This document shows, in pieces, positions 5,769 to 32,978 of a stretch of 36,862 nt of DNA. Made by a program: the position numbers and the translations under genes. The stretch's first letter is position 1, and the number at the start of each line of letters is the position of its first letter. The notes beneath the pieces are model-generated. The model worked only from the letters and a program-made list of their open reading frames with translations. It had not been told where the DNA came from and did not search any database. This DNA comes from Candidatus Stahliibacteriota bacterium (GTDB lineage Bacteria; Hydrothermota; UBA3073; JACQXS01). Where the stretch lies: the NCBI GenBank assembly GCA_016208615.1, contig JACQXS010000004.1:1-36862 (forward strand), given 5' to 3'.

Positions 5769-7928
5769 CTATAAGTCATAAGCAGTAAAAGTTCTTTTCT
5801 TTCTCTCTACCATAATAGGGTAGCCACAAGAGGGGCATTTTTTATCTACTGGCTTATACCAGAGTGCAAATTTGCACTTCGGGTAATTAGAACAGCCATA
5901 AAATAATCTCCGCCTTTTAGTATGACGCTCTATAATATCGCTACCGCACTCGGGACATTTAGCTACCACTACTTTTGGCTTATTGATGGGCTTAGTATTC
6001 TTGCATTCAGGGAAGCCAGAGCAAGCGAGAAACTTACCATATTTTCCAGATTTAATAACCATCTGTTTACCGCAGTGCTCACATTTTTCATTTGTTATTT
6101 CTGTTTGTTCCTCAGACTTATTGATAGGTTTGGCATTCTTGCATTCAGGGAAGCCGGAGCAGGCAAGGAATTTGCCATGCTTACCCCACTTAATAACTAA
6201 TGGTTTGCCGCATAGTTCGCATTTTTCATTTGTTATTTCCGTAATTTCAGTTCGCACCTCTTTTTTAGTTTGACTAAACCGTATAACATCTTCTTTGAAT
6301 GGCTTATAGAATGAATTAAGCACTGTAAGTCGGTCAGTAGTTTTAGCTTCTATTTTATCCAAATTCTCTTCCATCTCGCGAGTAAAATTAACATTAAATA
6401 TATCCGGGAACTGTGAAGTTAGTACCTTATTAACTGCCTCACCCAGTTCAGTAGGTGTAAGCTTACCCTCAATTTTATTAACATAGCTTTTTTCAATTAT
6501 TCTTGATATTATATTGGCATATGTAGAAGGTCTGCCAATTCCATTAGATTCCAATTCCTTTACCATAGTGCCTTCTGTATATCTGGGTTTAGGTTGAGTA
6601 AATTTTTGTTCCTTTAATACCTCGCGTAAATTAAGTTTAGTTCCTTTGACTAATTCTGGTAAAGTTTCTTCTTTCTTAATCTCTGGGGCATAAATTTTTG
6701 TGAAACCCGCAAATTTTAAGTTCTCGCTCTCTGCCGTTAGTTCATATTTACCAGCACTAATAGTTAGTTTTCTATGCTCATATATTGCATTTTGTATCTG
6801 TGAAGCCACAAATCTATTCCAGATAAGAGAATAGATCCTAAACTGCTGTCCACTTAAATATTGTTTTACTGCTTCCGGTGTTCTATACACGGAAGTAGGC
6901 CTAATCGCTTCGTGAGCTCCCGCCACCTTCCCATAGCTACGCGGTTTAGCAGGTAAATATTCTTTACCAAGTTCTTTTAAAATATAGTCTCTTGCCTCAT
7001 TAATGGCATGTGGTGCTATTCTAAATGAGTCAGTCCTCATATAAGTAATAAGGCCAACCCTACCCTTTTCGCCAATCTCTATACCCTCAAATAATTGTTG
7101 TGCCATCATCATAGTTTGCTTGGTGCTAAATTTTAGCTTAGACGAGGCATCTTGCTGAAGAGTTGAGGTAATATAAGGAGGAGAGGGTGATTTTTGCTTA
7201 TCTTTCTTACTGAAAGATTTAACTATAAAATCCTGTGCTTTTAGCTCTTTTTCAATTTGTGTTGCCTCTTTTGCATTGGGGATTTCTATTTTTATAAGCT
7301 TTCCGTTGGGGGGTTCTATTTTTATGAGATTAGCCGTAAACTCATTCTTACCATTAAGATTGCACTTTATTTCCCAGTATTCTTCGGGCTTAAAATTCTT
7401 TATCTCTTGTTCTCTTTCACATATAAGTCTTAAAGCCACTGATTGTACCCTACCGGCGGAAAGGCTAGGCTTATGAAAAATAGACCATAAAAATGGTGAA
7501 GTATCATAGCCAACTATTCTATCCAATATCCTACGAGCCTGTTGTGCCTCTACCTTATCCATATTTATGGAATTAAGATTATCAAGAGACTTGATTACTG
7601 CGTCCTTAGTTATTTCATAAAATAGTGCACGCTTGGCAGGAGATTTAATTAATGACTTTATATGATACGCTATTGCTTCACCTTCTCTATCCGGGTCAGT
7701 GGCTAAAATCACAAGCTCGGCTTTATCTGCCGAATCTTTAAGTTTATTAGCAATGTCTTTTTTTAATATTACATATTGTGGGGCAAAATCATTATCAACA
7801 TCTACTCCAAATTTCTTTGGCGGTAAATCTATTATATGACCCATTGAACTAATTACCTCGTATGATTTAGTCAAAAATCCCTGTATGGTCTTCGCCTTTG
7901 TAGGTGATTCCACTATTATAAGCTTCAT
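5769..7928 (-). CDS. topA: DNA topoisomerase I (type IA)
   Basis: TopA relaxes negative supercoils by cutting one strand through a 5'-phosphotyrosine. The 719-residue protein starts with the Toprim domain (E7 in VESPTKAKT and the DPDREGEA acidic triad at D78/D80/E82). The catalytic tyrosine is Y296 in LITYMRTDS. The C-terminus carries Cys4 zinc ribbons: two nearly identical copies (CELCGKPLV and CEHCGKQMV) with a 46-residue period, a third (CPECGSDII), and a fourth half-ribbon (CPSCGYPIM) that ends before its second cysteine pair. The 138-bp DNA duplication behind the first two ribbons lies at about 5982-6257. A small internal repeat, LIKIEPPNGK/LIKIEIPNAK, occupies residues 201-220. No Shine-Dalgarno site precedes the ATG at 7928; a promoter lies immediately upstream. 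Confidence 0.97.
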   Translation of the reverse strand: MKLIIVESPTKAKTIQGFLTKSYEVISSMGHIIDLPPKKFGVDVDNDFAPQYVILKKDIANKLKDSADKAELVILATDPDREGEAIAYHIKSLIKSPAKRALFYEITKDAVIKSLDNLNSINMDKVEAQQARRILDRIVGYDTSPFLWSIFHKPSLSAGRVQSVALRLICEREQEIKNFKPEEYWEIKCNLNGKNEFTANLIKIEPPNGKLIKIEIPNAKEATQIEKELKAQDFIVKSFSKKDKQKSPSPPYITSTLQQDASSKLKFSTKQTMMMAQQLFEGIEIGEKGRVGLITYMRTDSFRIAPHAINEARDYILKELGKEYLPAKPRSYGKVAGAHEAIRPTSVYRTPEAVKQYLSGQQFRIYSLIWNRFVASQIQNAIYEHRKLTISAGKYELTAESENLKFAGFTKIYAPEIKKEETLPELVKGTKLNLREVLKEQKFTQPKPRYTEGTMVKELESNGIGRPSTYANIISRIIEKSYVNKIEGKLTPTELGEAVNKVLTSQFPDIFNVNFTREMEENLDKIEAKTTDRLTVLNSFYKPFKEDVIRFSQTKKEVRTEITEITNEKCELCGKPLVIKWGKHGKFLACSGFPECKNAKPINKSEEQTEITNEKCEHCGKQMVIKSGKYGKFLACSGFPECKNTKPINKPKVVVAKCPECGSDIIERHTKRRRLFYGCSNYPKCKFALWYKPVDKKCPSCGYPIMVERKKRTFTAYDL

Positions 7929-13757: not shown

Positions 13758-14651
13758 ATGAAAGTTCCCGAGTGGATAGGTCGCCGAGCTTTTAGTAGTA
13801 ATACACATATCAAATCCCTATTAAAAGAGTTATCGCTTAACACTATTTGTGAATCTGCCAAGTGTCCCAATATTAACGAATGCTTTGGCAAGGGAAGTGC
13901 TACTTTTTTAATTCTCGGTAATATCTGTACAAGGAATTGCGGTTTTTGTAATGTTAAACATGGGGTACCTACTCCGATAGATAAGTCTGAGCCATATCGT
14001 GTAGCAGAAGCAGTAAAAAGACTCGGGTTATTATATGTAGTCATAACTTCTGTGACCAGAGATGACTTGCCTGATGGTGGGGCATCACAATTTATAACTA
14101 CCGTAGCGGCAATCCGAAAACAGAAGACAGAAGACAGATGTCAGAAGTCAGATGTCAGAAGCCAGAAGACGGAAGACGGAAGACAGGGACCAGACATTGA
14201 ATTACTTTTGCCGATACTTGAAAACAGGTGGCTTAACCAAATCGTAGCTATTCAGCCCAAGGTTATGGCTCACAATATAGAAACCGTGCCACGGCTTTAT
14301 GCACAAGTAAGACCTTGCTTCAATTACTCGGAGGCAATTAAGTTTTTGAATTATGTAAAAAGGGCAGATAATTCTATTCTTACTAAATCTGGTATTATGG
14401 TTGGATTAGGGGAAACACAAAAAGAAGTCATAGAAGTAATGAATGATTTAAGAGCACAGGGGGTAAATATTTTAACTATCGGTCAGTATCTCAAGCCTTC
14501 TGGCAGGCAATTACCCGTAGTAGAGTATGTGCAGCCGGCTCAATTTGACGAATACAAGAGAATAGGACAAGAAATGGGGTTTAAGTATGTAGCTTCTGCT
14601 CCGTATGTCAGGAGTTCATACAAGGCCTGGGAAGGTGAAAGCTGTTCATAA
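13758..14651 (+). CDS. lipA: Lipoyl synthase
   Basis: LipA is a radical SAM enzyme that inserts two sulfurs into octanoyl groups on lipoate-dependent proteins. Both iron-sulfur sites are visible: the auxiliary cluster motif CESAKCPNINEC and the radical SAM motif CTRNCGFC. Other family marks are TSVTRDDLPDGGA, MVGLGE and the C-terminal YVRSSYKAWE, whose RSSY serine ligates the auxiliary cluster. The 297-residue length is near normal. The loop after AAIRKQ contains about 24 foreign residues (QKTED-type repeats, DNA 14117-14188) from an in-frame microrepeat insertion, before the family pattern resumes at DIELLLPI. Its 3' end overlaps the sigma-factor ORF on the other strand by 112 bases. Confidence 0.93.
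   Translation: MKVPEWIGRRAFSSNTHIKSLLKELSLNTICESAKCPNINECFGKGSATFLILGNICTRNCGFCNVKHGVPTPIDKSEPYRVAEAVKRLGLLYVVITSVTRDDLPDGGASQFITTVAAIRKQKTEDRCQKSDVRSQKTEDGRQGPDIELLLPILENRWLNQIVAIQPKVMAHNIETVPRLYAQVRPCFNYSEAIKFLNYVKRADNSILTKSGIMVGLGETQKEVIEVMNDLRAQGVNILTIGQYLKPSGRQLPVVEYVQPAQFDEYKRIGQEMGFKYVASAPYVRSSYKAWEGESCS
14117..14188 (+). repeat. AGAAGACAG microrepeat inside lipA
   Basis: The segment is built from variants of CAGAAGACAG, GACGGAAG and CAGATGT. Related sequences occur at 18728-18780 (inside the GT4 gene), 22669-22700 (inside tilS) and 21951-21966 (intergenic). It keeps the lipA frame open and encodes a hydrophilic Lys/Glu/Asp/Arg/Gln loop. Confidence 0.75.
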
Positions 14652-18652: not shown

Positions 18653-19807
18653 ATGAAAATATTGCATATAAATTGGTCAGGAAGGCTGGGAGGTGCGGAA
18701 AGATTTGTGTGTAGTTTGGCATTATATCAGAAGGCAGAAGACAGAAGGCAGAAGACGGAGGGCAGAAGACAAAGGACGGTGAATAGAATTACCATTGCTT
18801 ATATGAGTGATAAGTCAGTATTGGGGGTAGAGACTGAGTCAAAAGATATAAAGGTAGTGGAATTCAAAATGAGGTCTGGATTTGATATTCTAAATTTTAT
18901 TCGTTATGTATTTTTTATTCTGCGAGAGCAGTTTGATGTTATACACGACCATAATGGTCCGCCTCTTGTGCGGTTGAGCAAACTTTTTTCTCGCCGCTCT
19001 ATATTCATCCAACATATTCATGGGACTAAATTTGGTAATCAGAAGTGGGAGCGTAGCTATGTGATTTTATGGAATCGCCTTACTTGTGGGCTGGTGGACC
19101 ATTATATAGCTAATTCCTCGCATACTAAGAAAATAGTTTCTGCCAAAGAAAACATTCCCTTATCTCGTATCTCTGTTGTCTATAATGGTATCGATTTAGC
19201 CGAATTCACGGGCATCGGAGACGATAAACGAATAAGTATTAGGAAAGAGTTGGGGCTGGCTGAAAATGAGTGGGTAGTAGGTATAGTTGGCAGGTTGACC
19301 TTACAAAAAGGGATAGATAAATTTATTCAGGTTGCCGAGTCCTTTTTCTTCAATAAGAATATGAGATTCGTAATAGTAGGCGAAGGCGAGATAAGGGAAG
19401 AGTTGGAGCGGTTAGTAAAATCCAAAGGGCTAACGGGTAGGGTAATTTTTACAGGCGGAAGAAAAGATATATCAGCTGTGCTTAAAATCTTTGATATCTT
19501 TTTGTTGACAAGCAATTGGGAGCCATTTGGGATTGTTTTAGTAGAAGCAATGGCGAGTGGGATTCCCGTAGTTGCTTTTAATGTAGATGGAGTATCTGAA
19601 GTAGTAGATGAGGGCTGTGGAATGCTTATTCCACCGGATATAGATGAAGCGGTTAAATCTATATTGTTTTTGAAAGAAAACCCATCTGTCGCCCGGCAAA
19701 TGGCAATAAATGGGCTTAAATTAGCAAATCAAAAGTTTGATATCCAAAGAAAAGTAAAAGAGATAGAAGATATTTATCTCTCATTGTACAAGAGTTCAAG
19801 AGTTTAA
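18653..19807 (+). CDS. Glycosyltransferase family 4
   Basis: This is a 384-residue GT-B fold enzyme. The N-terminal half opens MKILHINWSGRLGGAERFV with the glycine-rich acceptor loop. The C-terminal half has VVGIVGRLTLQKGIDKFI, VIVGEGEIREELERL, and the donor-binding stretch FLLTSNWEPFGIVLVEAMASGIPVVAF with the E-x7-E motif. Such enzymes build lipopolysaccharide, capsule or other glycolipids from nucleotide sugars at the cytoplasmic membrane. After LALYQ an insertion of about 18 residues rich in Lys, Arg, Glu and Gln (AEDRRQKTEGRRQRT) comes from a CAGAAGAC microrepeat at 18728-18780. The fold probably tolerates it because it lies in a surface loop between the first helix and second strand. Confidence 0.92.
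   Translation: MKILHINWSGRLGGAERFVCSLALYQKAEDRRQKTEGRRQRTVNRITIAYMSDKSVLGVETESKDIKVVEFKMRSGFDILNFIRYVFFILREQFDVIHDHNGPPLVRLSKLFSRRSIFIQHIHGTKFGNQKWERSYVILWNRLTCGLVDHYIANSSHTKKIVSAKENIPLSRISVVYNGIDLAEFTGIGDDKRISIRKELGLAENEWVVGIVGRLTLQKGIDKFIQVAESFFFNKNMRFVIVGEGEIREELERLVKSKGLTGRVIFTGGRKDISAVLKIFDIFLLTSNWEPFGIVLVEAMASGIPVVAFNVDGVSEVVDEGCGMLIPPDIDEAVKSILFLKENPSVARQMAINGLKLANQKFDIQRKVKEIEDIYLSLYKSSRV
18728..18780 (+). repeat. AGAAGGCAGAAGAC microrepeat inside the GT4 gene
   Basis: Tandem variants of CAGAAGGCAGAAGACGGAG are inserted in frame near the 5' end. The unit is that seen in lipA and tilS, all on the coding strand in the same reading register (AGAAGACAG giving QKTED/AEDRRQ). Confidence 0.7.
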
Positions 19808-21013: not shown

Positions 21014-21754
21014 TCATTTGATTTGTATAATGTAGATGGGAGAGGGGATAGAGGAGAGGCCGTTTTCAGCAATATTTCTAATTTGAATTTTCACTTGGCA
21101 TGGAATTAAGTCTTTTATGTTTCTTTCTTCTGTTTTATTTTTTGTAGTTTTAATTTTTTCTATTGTAATTATTTGTGGTATTTCAGTAATTGGTTCCCTT
21201 TTAGCAACATATGGAGGGCTCCATTCGCCAGTTTTTTTGACCCATATTTGGGCTATCATTTTGGGCATTAGCCCGCTTTGTTTGCTTTTGTAATGTGTTT
21301 TTGTCCATATTTTAAATTCAATAGGTGTACTGTAAGTACCGTATTGTTTCAAATCGCAGCAAGGAGTAGGCGGTATTTTATCATTAAATGGGGGTTTGCT
21401 TATCATTTTAAATCCTGCCATCATAATCATTTGATTTATTCCTGTGAAAGCATGGAATCCGTCTACCCATCCCTTATTATTTGCTTTTATCATTCTATTT
21501 CTACCTGTTTTTATCTTATTTCTTTTTTGTTTTGCATAATCTTGCCATAATACTTGTTCTATTATCTCTAATTGTTTCCATTTATTTGTAATTTTAGTAA
21601 ATATTTTTCTTGCTTCTTTTTGTTTTTCAGATTTAGGGTTTTTGGGTTTAACTTTTTGTCTAACATAAATAGTTCTTCTGCCTCTGACGAAGACTACATT
21701 GCCCAGCTTGCCATGGATAGATTGTAATAATCCGCATAAAGTAACATTAGCCAT
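21014..21754 (-). CDS. Unknown protein with GKLGNVVF N-terminus
   Basis: I do not recognise a characterised family. The 246-residue product has no signal peptide and is strongly basic. The N-terminus IHGKLGNVVFVRGRRTIYVRQ followed by PKNPKSEKQKEARKIF and a helix ending QVLWQDYAKQ resembles short-repeat proteins seen in Bacteroidota and related uncultured lineages (DUF6266-like in style), whose role is unknown. WVDGFHAFTGINQMIM continues this pattern. The C-terminal half is strand-rich with a Lys/Glu-rich linker and could be an Ig-like or fibronectin-like fold. A very strong AAGGAGG site precedes the ATG at 21754. Neighbours purC and tilS give no functional hint. The spacer on its 5' side carries GACTATAGACATTA repeats. 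Confidence 0.65.
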   Translation of the reverse strand: MANVTLCGLLQSIHGKLGNVVFVRGRRTIYVRQKVKPKNPKSEKQKEARKIFTKITNKWKQLEIIEQVLWQDYAKQKRNKIKTGRNRMIKANNKGWVDGFHAFTGINQMIMMAGFKMISKPPFNDKIPPTPCCDLKQYGTYSTPIEFKIWTKTHYKSKQSGLMPKMIAQIWVKKTGEWSPPYVAKREPITEIPQIITIEKIKTTKNKTEERNIKDLIPCQVKIQIRNIAENGLSSIPSPIYIIQIK

Positions 21755-21775
21755 TTTTATTCCTCCTTTTTTAAG

Positions 21776-21812
21776 AGACTATAGACATTAGACTATAGAC
21801 ATTAGACTATAG
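21776..21812 (+). repeat. GACTATAGACATTA tandem microrepeat
   Basis: Two and a half copies of a 16-base unit, GACTATAGACATTA with AG, lie between the ribosome site of the 21754 gene and tilS. A related version, GACCATAGACTATAGACC, lies inside tilS at about 22917-22943. Confidence 0.75.
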
Positions 21813-21918
21813 TTTAAAGCTAACTATTTATCCTATTCATCCTGTTTATAATATAGGGATAAGATTTATTTTTCATTATGTATTTTTATGCAATTTTAGG
21901 CATATAGTTAAAAAAGTC

Positions 21919-21947
21919 TTGACTTTCTTTTAGTAGTAAGATATAAG
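21919..21947 (+). promoter_or_regulatory. Promoter of tilS operon
   Basis: TTGACT (21919-21924), 17 bases and TATAAG (21942-21947) lie 47 bases before the tilS ATG. This is the only good promoter before the tilS-ftsH-cdaA-DUF2723 run. Confidence 0.5.
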
Positions 21948-21967
21948 AATACGGAAGACAGAAAAGA

Positions 21968-22070
21968 AAGTTCAAAGTTCAAAAGTTAAAAGAAATGCAA
22001 ACCTTAAATCCTTTGCCACAAAGGCACAAAGGCACTAATTTACACAAAAATGAAAGTTCAAAGTTCAAAA
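21968..22070 (+). repeat. Dispersed repeat family A, copy at tilS start
   Basis: The copy (CCTTAAATCC, TTTGCCACAAAGGCACAAAGG, CACTAATTTACACAAAA, then AAGTTCAAAGTTCAAAA) supplies the first 25 or so codons of tilS as annotated. It implies that the gene's original start was displaced or that translation really begins further downstream. Confidence 0.75.
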
Positions 22071-23566
22071 ATCAAGCATTAAAAGATATATTGGCGACTA
22101 TAAAGAAGTATAGGATGCTTGAAGATGGGGATAAAGTATTAGTGGCGGTCTCAGGAGGAGCAGATTCTATTTTTTTATTGCGGTTTCTGCATACTTTGGC
22201 GACTGGCCCATTCTATAATTTAGAAAATGAACTACAGATTAAAAACTCGGAAGTCAAAAGTCAAAACCTAAATACAATGCCACAAAGGCACCAAGGCACT
22301 AAGTTACACCAAAATACTGATGTAACTAAGTCATTCTATAATTTAGAGCTTCGGGTAGCTCATTTAAATCATTGTCTTAGGGATGGTGCGGGTGAAGATG
22401 CTGCATTTGTTCGTGCGGAGTGTGATAGATTAGGTATTCCTTGTACTATTTCGTCCATAGATGTTCGGTCTTATTGTCGTGAGCATAGACTTACCTTAGA
22501 AGAAGGTGCGAGAGAGGTGCGGTATAATTTTTTATTAGAAGTATCTTCTGTTTATGGGATGAATAAGATAGCTACCGGTCATACGGGTTCTGACCAGGCC
22601 GAGACTTTTCTTTTGCGGGTAATGCGAGGATGTGGGGGTAGGGGACTTTTACTTATTCCGCCAATACGGAAGACAGGAGACGGAGGACAGAAGACAGAAG
22701 AGAAAGTTCAAGAGTTCAAGAGTTTAAGAGTTCAAGAGTTCAAGAGTTCAAGAGTTCAAGAGTTTAAGAGTTCAAGGTTCAAAATAGAAATTATTAGGCC
22801 TTTGATAGAGATAGGGCGTGAGGCAGCGCCTGATTTTTGCGCTAAGATTACCAGACTACATAATATATTAGAAGAAGAGGAGCAAGTTTTGGATGAGCTG
22901 ACCGAGGATAGACTAAAGACCATAGACTATAGACCGAAGACTAAAGACCAAAGATCAATAGATAATGGTGAGTTTGATTTAGATAAGTTCCTATCTACAC
23001 CTTTGGCAATAAAGAGAAGGATAATAAGAAAGGTGGTGGGTCATAATTTTTTTGCTCCCAGTTTTGAAGAGGTTGAGAATGCGCTTAGGTATATAGAAAA
23101 TAATAGAGGAGGCAAAGAATTTGAGTTGGGGGAAGTAAAACTAATTAAAAGTTGTGGCAAGATTAGGATTGTTACTCAGCAAGAAATAAGGAGCAAAAAG
23201 CTTTTACTTGAATTACCTGTTCCGGGCGAAGTAGAACTGAATGGCTACAAAATAAAATCCAAACTCCAAAAGCTAAAAGCTAAAATCCAAAATCCAAATG
23301 GGGGAGTAGAATATTGTGATTTCGCTCATCTTACTCTGCCGCTCTTTGTAAGGACTGCTGAATTGGGGGATAGGATACGGTTAAAAGAAGGGCATAAAAA
23401 GTTAAAAGCATTGTTTATTGAGGCAAAAATTCCAGTCTGGGAGCGAAAGGGTATCCCTTTAGTTGTAGATGGGGGAGGCATTTTGTGGGTTGTGGGTTGG
23501 CGTAGGGCTTATAGGGCAATGATAGGGAAGGAAACAACTAAGATAGTGGAATTAAGTATCTTTTAG
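21995..23566 (+). CDS. tilS: tRNA(Ile)-lysidine synthase with repeat insertions
   Basis: TilS attaches lysine to C34 of the AUA-reading tRNA(Ile) using ATP. The PP-loop VLVAVSGGADSIFLLRFL, then VAHLNHCLRDGAGEDA, TGHTGSDQAETFLLRVMRGCGGRGL, and the C-terminal RTAELGDRIRLKEGHKKLKALFIEAKIPVWER identify it. At 523 residues it is longer than usual (roughly 320-470). The excess comes from in-frame repeats: the first 25 residues, a 41-residue insert in the N-domain (22225-22347) bracketed by a duplicated FYNLE, a VQEFKSSR tandem (22699-22780), an IDYRPKTKDQ stretch (22917-22955) and an IKSKLQKLKAKIQNPN stretch (23257-23302). The core motifs survive. The ATG at 21995 is the first in frame; M42 (MLEDGDKVLVAVSGG) is a plausible alternative start. 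ftsH follows after about 40 bases. Confidence 0.93.
   Translation: MQTLNPLPQRHKGTNLHKNESSKFKNQALKDILATIKKYRMLEDGDKVLVAVSGGADSIFLLRFLHTLATGPFYNLENELQIKNSEVKSQNLNTMPQRHQGTKLHQNTDVTKSFYNLELRVAHLNHCLRDGAGEDAAFVRAECDRLGIPCTISSIDVRSYCREHRLTLEEGAREVRYNFLLEVSSVYGMNKIATGHTGSDQAETFLLRVMRGCGGRGLLLIPPIRKTGDGGQKTEEKVQEFKSLRVQEFKSSRVQEFKSSRFKIEIIRPLIEIGREAAPDFCAKITRLHNILEEEEQVLDELTEDRLKTIDYRPKTKDQRSIDNGEFDLDKFLSTPLAIKRRIIRKVVGHNFFAPSFEEVENALRYIENNRGGKEFELGEVKLIKSCGKIRIVTQQEIRSKKLLLELPVPGEVELNGYKIKSKLQKLKAKIQNPNGGVEYCDFAHLTLPLFVRTAELGDRIRLKEGHKKLKALFIEAKIPVWERKGIPLVVDGGGILWVVGWRRAYRAMIGKETTKIVELSIF
22209..22347 (+). repeat. Repeat insertion in tilS flanked by 16-bp direct repeats
   Basis: CATTCTATAATTTAGA occurs at 22209-22224 and again, identically, at 22332-22347, 123 bases (41 codons) apart. 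Between them lies a family A copy (22255-22320). This is the structure expected when an element inserts with a target-site duplication or by template switching, and it preserves the reading frame. Confidence 0.85.
22699..22770 (+). repeat. AGTTCAAGA nonamer tandem in tilS
   Basis: About eight copies of AGTTCAAGA (with AGTTTAAGA variants) encode VQEFKSLR/VQEFKSSR repeats. It is preceded by a CAGAAGACAG-type run at 22669-22700. Being a multiple of three, the 9-mer can change copy number without frameshift. Confidence 0.85.
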
Positions 23567-23607
23567 GTAGTAGGTTGTATCTTTTTAGGAAGGGAGGTAA
23601 GTTAAAT

Positions 23608-31766: not shown

Positions 31767-32978
31767 ATGGTTGAAAAAATACCTATTTCATTCAGAAAAG
31801 AAGTTTCTGAGATTCCCTCTACCACCTACGGTACATTTGCCATTTACAAGTATCCTGCTAAATTTATACCTCAAGTAATTGCATTTGTTATCAAGAAATA
31901 CGCAAAACCAGGCATGAAAATATTTGACCCTTTTGCTGGATATGGAACAGTGGGAGTAGTTTCAAAAGCTTATGGGTACAATTATATAATGTGGGATTTG
32001 AATCCCATTATAAATTTAATTCATGATGTTGCTACAATAGATGAAATAAAATTAAATGTTTCGGTTCTGCTTAAAGATATCAGAGATTCGCAAAAGAAAT
32101 TTATTCCAGAATGGTCTAATTTGGATTATTGGTTTCCAAAAGAGTTTTTACCAATGCTTTCCAAAGCATGGGGATATGTCTATTCGCTTCCCAAAAAACA
32201 ACATCAAGTGTTGTTAATTCCATTACTTAAGGTTACCAGGTACTTTTCATATAGTGATGAGAAGGTTCACAAATTATATAAATCTAAACATTCAAAAGAA
32301 AAGGTTAACAATCTTTTAAAAAATGATTGGAGAGAAGAGTTTTATCGTAGATTGGGAAAAGAAATAAACCTACTTGTAAAACGGGTTGAAGAATATAGTC
32401 ATCTTAATCATAAGCAAGTAGAATCTACCATAGAATCTGGGAAGGATATATTCGACTTAAAATTAAACCAGAAAGTTGATATTCTGGTTACTTCTCCACC
32501 TTATCTACAGGCACAGGAATATATCAGATCCACTAAACTTGAACTATTCTGGCTTGGATACAAAGAAAATCAAATAAAGGGATTAAGTAAGAAGGAAATC
32601 CCATACAGACAAGTTGAAAGAATAAAAATATATTCACCTACTTACCATATATACAGGGACAAAATAAAAGAACCCCATTTGATAGAACTATATGAGAGAT
32701 ATTTTCATTCTATATTAAAAATATTTACTGACCTGGGGGAAAATGTAAAGAGATATATGTGTATCTTTGTAGGACCAGCGAAGATAAGAAATTTTTCTAT
32801 ACCTATTGATGATATTGTCATAGAACATTTACAAAAATTTGGATGGAACCATAGAGTCACATATATTGACACAATAGTATCAAGAAATATGTTCCAGTCA
32901 AAAATAAACCCAGCTTCTGGATTAGAAGATGAAAGAATAAAAACAGAGAATCTGGTTGTCCTGGAAAGGATAAATTGA
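31767..32978 (+). CDS. N4/N6-type DNA methyltransferase
   Basis: The 403-residue protein has an N-terminal motif X-like YPAKFIPQVI (29-38), SAM-binding motif I FDPFAGYGTVG (53-63) followed by WDLNP (76-80), and catalytic motif IV TSPPY (242-246) within TSPPYLQAQEYIRSTKLEL. The SPPY form favours amino methylation of cytosine (N4), though adenine N6 is possible. Some 180 residues between motif I and IV are more than in a compact amino-methyltransferase and may hold an inserted, possibly target-recognition, domain. It overlaps the next gene by one base (TGATG), so the two are co-translated and form a restriction-modification pair. A TTGACT at 31711 is a possible -35. No ribosome site precedes the ATG. 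Confidence 0.85.
   Translation: MVEKIPISFRKEVSEIPSTTYGTFAIYKYPAKFIPQVIAFVIKKYAKPGMKIFDPFAGYGTVGVVSKAYGYNYIMWDLNPIINLIHDVATIDEIKLNVSVLLKDIRDSQKKFIPEWSNLDYWFPKEFLPMLSKAWGYVYSLPKKQHQVLLIPLLKVTRYFSYSDEKVHKLYKSKHSKEKVNNLLKNDWREEFYRRLGKEINLLVKRVEEYSHLNHKQVESTIESGKDIFDLKLNQKVDILVTSPPYLQAQEYIRSTKLELFWLGYKENQIKGLSKKEIPYRQVERIKIYSPTYHIYRDKIKEPHLIELYERYFHSILKIFTDLGENVKRYMCIFVGPAKIRNFSIPIDDIVIEHLQKFGWNHRVTYIDTIVSRNMFQSKINPASGLEDERIKTENLVVLERIN

Follow-up and report, generated by a model that had tools for sequence, protein, structure and literature searches.

Our sequence comparisons indicate that the insertion in tilS is real: it is derived, it lies in frame, and 16 bp of the gene were duplicated with it. 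It is a clean derived event whose empty state we could identify, which bears on the multiplication of very small non-coding repeats in bacterial genomes. The 16-bp duplication is not a general signature of the repeats to which the insert belongs.

The tilS insert and its empty state

The duplicated sequence, CATTCTATAATTTAGA, stands identically on both sides of a repeat, with 123 bp (41 codons) from start to start and 107 bp between the copies (Table 1). The protein reads FYNLE, 36 residues and FYNLE again in a single open frame; the coordinates, the identity and the intact frame given for this arrangement in the sequence-only reading all proved correct. These are the only two copies of the 16-mer in the 2,118,742-base host assembly (G000; 2.12 Mb in 126 contigs, 83% complete). 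We put the chance expectation of a 16-bp direct repeat within 400 bp, estimated from composition, at ~0.01 for a sequence as long as the window, that is, the whole stretch of 36,862 nucleotides that was analysed. The window holds 18 exact direct repeats of at least 12 bp within 400 bp, and the tilS pair is the sole one among them of at least 14 bp that flanks a repeat array without consisting of repeat sequence itself or of a tandem gene segment. The rest of the window's short-range exact repeats of at least 14 bp belong to arrays or to tandem gene segments, except for a 14-mer at 32615/32930 with no array between its copies.

To the TilS sequence we aligned the TilS proteins of 24 relatives within its phylum, candidate division WOR-3. 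The 41-residue insert was present in none of the 24; in these relatives the first helix runs straight into one strand (KTQYNLQLKVVHLNH, KDIYSLELSIAHLNH and similar sequences), equivalent to the single FYNLELRVAHLNH of the query. Since the strand is uninterrupted in all 24, the insert and the second 16-mer are derived, and the reading in which both 16-mers and the segment between them are ancestral to tilS has next to no chance of being right. The closest TilS shares ~62% identity with the query, so the empty site is known at the protein level. At that level, this single-copy empty state supports the earlier claim that a non-coding repeat was inserted in tilS with a target duplication. Plain replication slippage, which had been offered beside it, is insufficient by itself because it supplies no 107 bp of foreign sequence.

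Table 1. Coordinates of the features of tilS and its insert, with the basis on which each was placed
Feature	Position	Strand	Basis or content
tilS, tRNA(Ile) lysidine synthetase, 523 aa	21995..23566	+	Pfam ATP_bind_3 / TilS_C; NCBIfam TIGR02432 / TIGR02433; alignment
Composite repeat array, tilS 5' end	21960..22075	+	Repeat copy provides in-frame ATG at 21995
Left 16-bp copy, CATTCTATAATTTAGA	22209..22224	+	Exact search
107-bp insert	22225..22331	+	Missing from all 24 relatives aligned
Left insert part, 29 bp	22225..22253	+	Degenerate AAACTC/GTCAAAAGTC-type array and ~10 other bp
Dispersed repeat core	22254..22314	+	GCCAC(NAARNCAC)2NAARNTACAC family, conserved 5' flank TCAAAAGTCAAAACCTAAATACAAT, boundaries common to ~29 copies
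Right insert part, TACTGATGTAACTAAGT, 17 bp	22315..22331	+	Holds GATGTAACTAAGT, 11/13 inverted copy of the core's ACTAAGTTACACC
Right 16-bp copy, CATTCTATAATTTAGA	22332..22347	+	Exact search
Second in-frame tilS array	22667..22784	+	CAGAAGA heptamers, then GTTCAAGA octamers
Junction of ~45-residue deletion, IIRPLIEIGRE / AAPDF	22812..22826	+	Alignment, TIGR02432
Third in-frame tilS array	22905..22955	+	AGACTATAGACC heptamers

When the whole 139 bp of insert and 16-mers was compared with the genome, other copies aligned only over its positions ~45 to 106. This sets the length of the conserved repeat element at ~60 bp and places it 29 bp away from the left 16-mer and 17 bp away from the right one. 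The family of the segment 22254-22314 counts ~29 genome copies by BLAST and 26 exact pattern matches. The left 29 bp resemble the AAACTC/GTCAAAAGTC arrays of this genome and had no match of their own genome-wide, no terminal inverted repeats were found at the insert ends, and an Rfam search over 21400-23600 gave nothing at gathering threshold. The fold in which GATGTAACTAAGT pairs with ACTAAGTTACACC is weak (z = -2.3; 5 of 200 shuffles equal it). In two relatives (G002 and G003) the core makes up one of the two arms of an ~80-bp palindrome. The tilS copy may therefore be such a palindrome cut short, in which case GATGTAACTAAGT would be the start of the truncated second arm. A candidate donor at G000:C24:23550, with a 16-nt match across the left junction, was rejected (E-value 0.26, unrelated surroundings).

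Elsewhere, many species carry the repeat as a palindromic pair with arms of ~35 nt and an AT-rich centre (L062, L107, L136, L206-L230), and the copies that we looked at in the host assembly are mostly single-armed. At L058, L061, L077, L225 and L227, GC-rich hairpins of ~24-30 bp are nested inside the repeat core, so that the core itself provides the empty site for comparison, and around them we saw no target duplication.

The tilS gene is single copy in the assembly and bears several repeat-derived insertions together with a deletion of ~45 residues. The missing segment (REExxxFL...DxSNxxxxYxRNxVRHxIVP) is present in the aligned relatives, and the TIGR02432 match ends at profile position 140 of 189. 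This loss may be a real deletion at GRE/RE; alternatively, the gene may be decaying or the assembly may be wrong here. It is also one of the points in favour of an artefact of assembly or strain mixture, in which the duplication and the neighbouring deletion would both stem from misassembly of a metagenome-derived genome: a tilS without a segment that its relatives conserve is odd for a normally essential gene, and the assembly is incomplete and in many contigs. Against it, the 523 codons stay open despite several arrays and the deletion, and the inserted copy has a sequence of its own, not that of a perfect repeat by which an assembler would be confused; we consider such an artefact very improbable.

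Short repeat-like insertions also occur in G001 and G002, in the same loop as the second tilS array, and further in-frame repeat copies lie in L054 and L078. The tilS ATG falls within a repeat copy (MQTLNPLPQRHKGTNLHKN, 21995-22075), from which the start codon may come, and an hdrA-like gene in L038 likewise starts in a repeat copy. Two more arrays of CAGAAGA heptamers, at 14107-14200 and 18728-18793, lie in frame in a lipA-like and a glycosyltransferase-like gene.

Target sequence at other repeat copies

We examined the flanks of ~50 repeat arrays within ~106 kb of the host's own genome. Duplications of host sequence were found at two of them, the perfect 16 bp of tilS and one at an hdr operon junction (L038), versus 4 of 2000 control positions at comparable scores, so such duplications are above background yet belong to a small minority of arrays. 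The duplication at the hdr junction is imperfect, with 36 identical positions in 43 bp (~84%) on both sides of the array; of its two copies, one forms the end of the upstream hdr gene and the other carries a ribosome-binding site and the start for the downstream gene. On contig C62 (L048/L055), a flanking duplication of ~85 bp is itself repeat sequence. When all the genomes fetched were considered, across many phyla, exact flanking direct repeats were rare: those of at least 11 bp accompanied 15 of 150 distinct core copies versus 15 of 450 controls; those 15 are mostly array-internal or tandem duplications, and a modest excess over controls appears only at lengths of at least 14 bp.

We also compared fetched stretches of the sister pairs G002/G003 (~95% identity) and G004/G007 (~87%), plus G001, and obtained 22 distinct filled/empty sites. 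The pairs are mostly unpolarised and a filled site is not always a gain, so some of these sites may be deletions. The target overlaps were -12, -12, -11, -11, -11, -10, -8, -8, -8, -7, -5, -4, -3, -3, -3, 0, +1, +1, +3, +8, +12 and +17. Sixteen of the 22 thus lack a duplication, with an overlap of 0 or with 3-12 target bases missing or replaced at the filled site; three have 1-3 bp duplicated, and the remaining three have 8, 12 and 17 bp. The +17 site is a small ORF and not a repeat, and the +12 site is a 684-bp segment that includes arrays. Among the sites without duplication are a 162-bp array with an overlap of 0 (G007:C6:72444), a 95-bp octamer array with 5 bases replaced (L276:8566) and a 132-bp palindrome with 8 bases replaced (L268:2445). 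The sequence-only reading had taken the tilS duplication as the best clue to how these repeats move and had named a lack of flanking duplications at other recent copies as a refutation. Such a lack is largely what the sister sites and the host's own arrays show, and this part of the reading is unsupported.

These sites weigh directly on the proposal that the repeat is a MITE-like element whose transposase leaves target duplications of long or variable size, of which 16 bp would be one. The 16-bp and 43-bp duplications that flank repeat arrays, the paired arms of the palindromic element in relatives and the precedent of YPAL/RU-2, whose duplications vary between 3 and 26 bp (PMC2229807), all agree with this proposal. 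It is nevertheless unlikely in view of the 16 sites of 22 that show no duplication, of 16-mers that are not abutted by the conserved element, of insert ends that are not inverted repeats and of a transposase family that does not track the repeat. The family tested was Y1_Tnp: G003 and G004 carry repeats without it, and G009 has 15 Y1_Tnp genes and no exact repeat. The tilS repeat, then, shows neither the constant duplication nor the abutting inverted-repeat ends of a transposon or MITE. A transposase with a fixed stagger is unlikely as well, since the duplication length varies (16 bp in tilS, ~43 bp in L038, -12 to +17 at the 22 sister sites) and further bases lie between the conserved element and the 16-mers. 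The sister-pair sites already speak against a fixed-duplication transposase, and DNA-level sites in G002/G003 and G004/G007 can discriminate between transposition, RNA-mediated spread and break repair.

Probable capture at a break or template switching

Capture at a break and template switching form the class of mechanism that probably explains the tilS event. Repeat-bearing DNA would have been captured at a break or at a stalled replication fork, and a 107-bp fragment, made of a copy of the GCCAC-repeat element and its array flanks, would have been joined into tilS in one event. Either a break with a 16-nt stagger would have been filled in before the fragment was joined, or the polymerase would have switched to a repeat template and returned 16 nt upstream. 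A blunt or trimmed break, or a return point further downstream, would leave no duplication or cost a few target bases, as seen at most of the sister-species sites, and selection would keep those in-gene insertions that are in frame and in tolerant loops. The variable outcome at the target, which may be loss, no change or a duplication of variable length, is what break capture would give, as would a template switch whose return is imprecise. Against capture count the two tilS junctions, at which we found no microhomology of the kind that template switching often leaves, and a tally of two known host-sequence duplications.

We found no Ku in G000-G009 and no RVT_1 reverse transcriptase in G000-G020, a set that includes repeat-carrying members of the order, although such absences are no proof, given incomplete assemblies (83% complete for the host). 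As neither was found in repeat-carrying genomes, Ku-dependent joining and RVT_1-dependent copying are unsupported, and end joining would need a Ku-independent route. The missing RVT_1 likewise stands against an RNA-mediated spread of very small elements by reverse transcription into broken sites, as proposed for the small dispersed repeats (SDR) of cyanobacteria. The tiny hairpins nested in the repeat at L058, L061, L225 and L227 resemble the nested insertions of SDR, and yet we give this route little credence.

Breadth of the repeat and comparison with known systems

A 31-bp pattern, GCCACNAARNCACNAARNCACNAARNTACAC, had 0 matches in the reversed control. Within WOR-3 it is confined to the host's order, save for one copy in G028. 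Across GTDB, the matches listed include Bacteroidota, Acidobacteriota, Aminicenantes, Ignavibacteria/Chlorobiota, Desulfococcaceae, Phycisphaerae, Nitrospira and others, and the pattern also occurs in one viral contig. A partial literature search found no published description of the repeat sequence or of WOR-3 repeats. Conceivably, though we hold it doubtful, all these copies belong to one family of GCCAC and 8-nt CAC motifs, often in palindromic pairs, that spans many phyla and spreads into breaks or forks in an unrecognised way, free of transposase and reverse transcriptase, with variable numbers of target bases replaced or duplicated and with essential genes among its targets.

The SDR and heptameric arrays (STRR) of cyanobacteria combine tandem arrays of 7-8 nt with tiny nested hairpin insertions. 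The WOR-3 repeat is alike in its 7-8-nt arrays and nested small hairpins, and differs in its host phyla, its sequences and its longer, often palindromic element. Heptameric arrays in general are known yet little studied (PMC4692102).

Rickettsia palindromic elements (RPE) are dispersed non-coding repeats of ~100 bp, both intergenic and in frame within conserved genes (PMC2229807). Like them, the tilS repeat sits in frame in a conserved protein gene that stays open; unlike them, with their long terminal inverted repeats and unsettled target duplication, the tilS copy is a piece of a composite array with a 16-bp duplication. The YPAL/RU-2 elements of Yersinia have, besides their variable target duplications, internal inverted repeats (PMC2229807), and inverted repeats of this kind are also seen in the WOR-3 repeat. 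The 16 bp of tilS fall within their range, whereas most sister sites have no duplication or have bases replaced, and the WOR-3 element differs in being ~60 bp with tandem 8-nt motifs. By behaviour we would liken the WOR-3 repeat to both systems, and we would class it as a member of neither. The REP/REPIN elements with their RAYT transposases resemble the WOR-3 repeat as short palindromic pairs scattered through non-coding DNA (PMC3116915, PMC3733652); the WOR-3 repeat differs from them in that it is uncorrelated with Y1 genes, lies inside coding sequence and has a tandem 8-nt structure. Small variable segments of 20-500 bp are attributed to illegitimate recombination in bacteria, often lie in genes and have short flanking direct repeats in 10-18% of cases (PMC2884548). 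The commonness of such segments tempers the surprise of the tilS case, although they are mostly non-repeat sequence and the tilS insert belongs to dispersed families.

Other duplications and repeats were seen along the way. At G007:C5:186000-200000 (L289), repeat arrays are associated with near-perfect tandem duplications of ~200 bp in which a gene start is included. Within the window, a 34-nt inverted repeat (444-477 / 1876-1909; 91% complementary) has both arms within the first ORF, and a 138-bp tandem duplication (5979-6242; 79%) in the zinc-finger region of a topA-like gene is probably ordinary.
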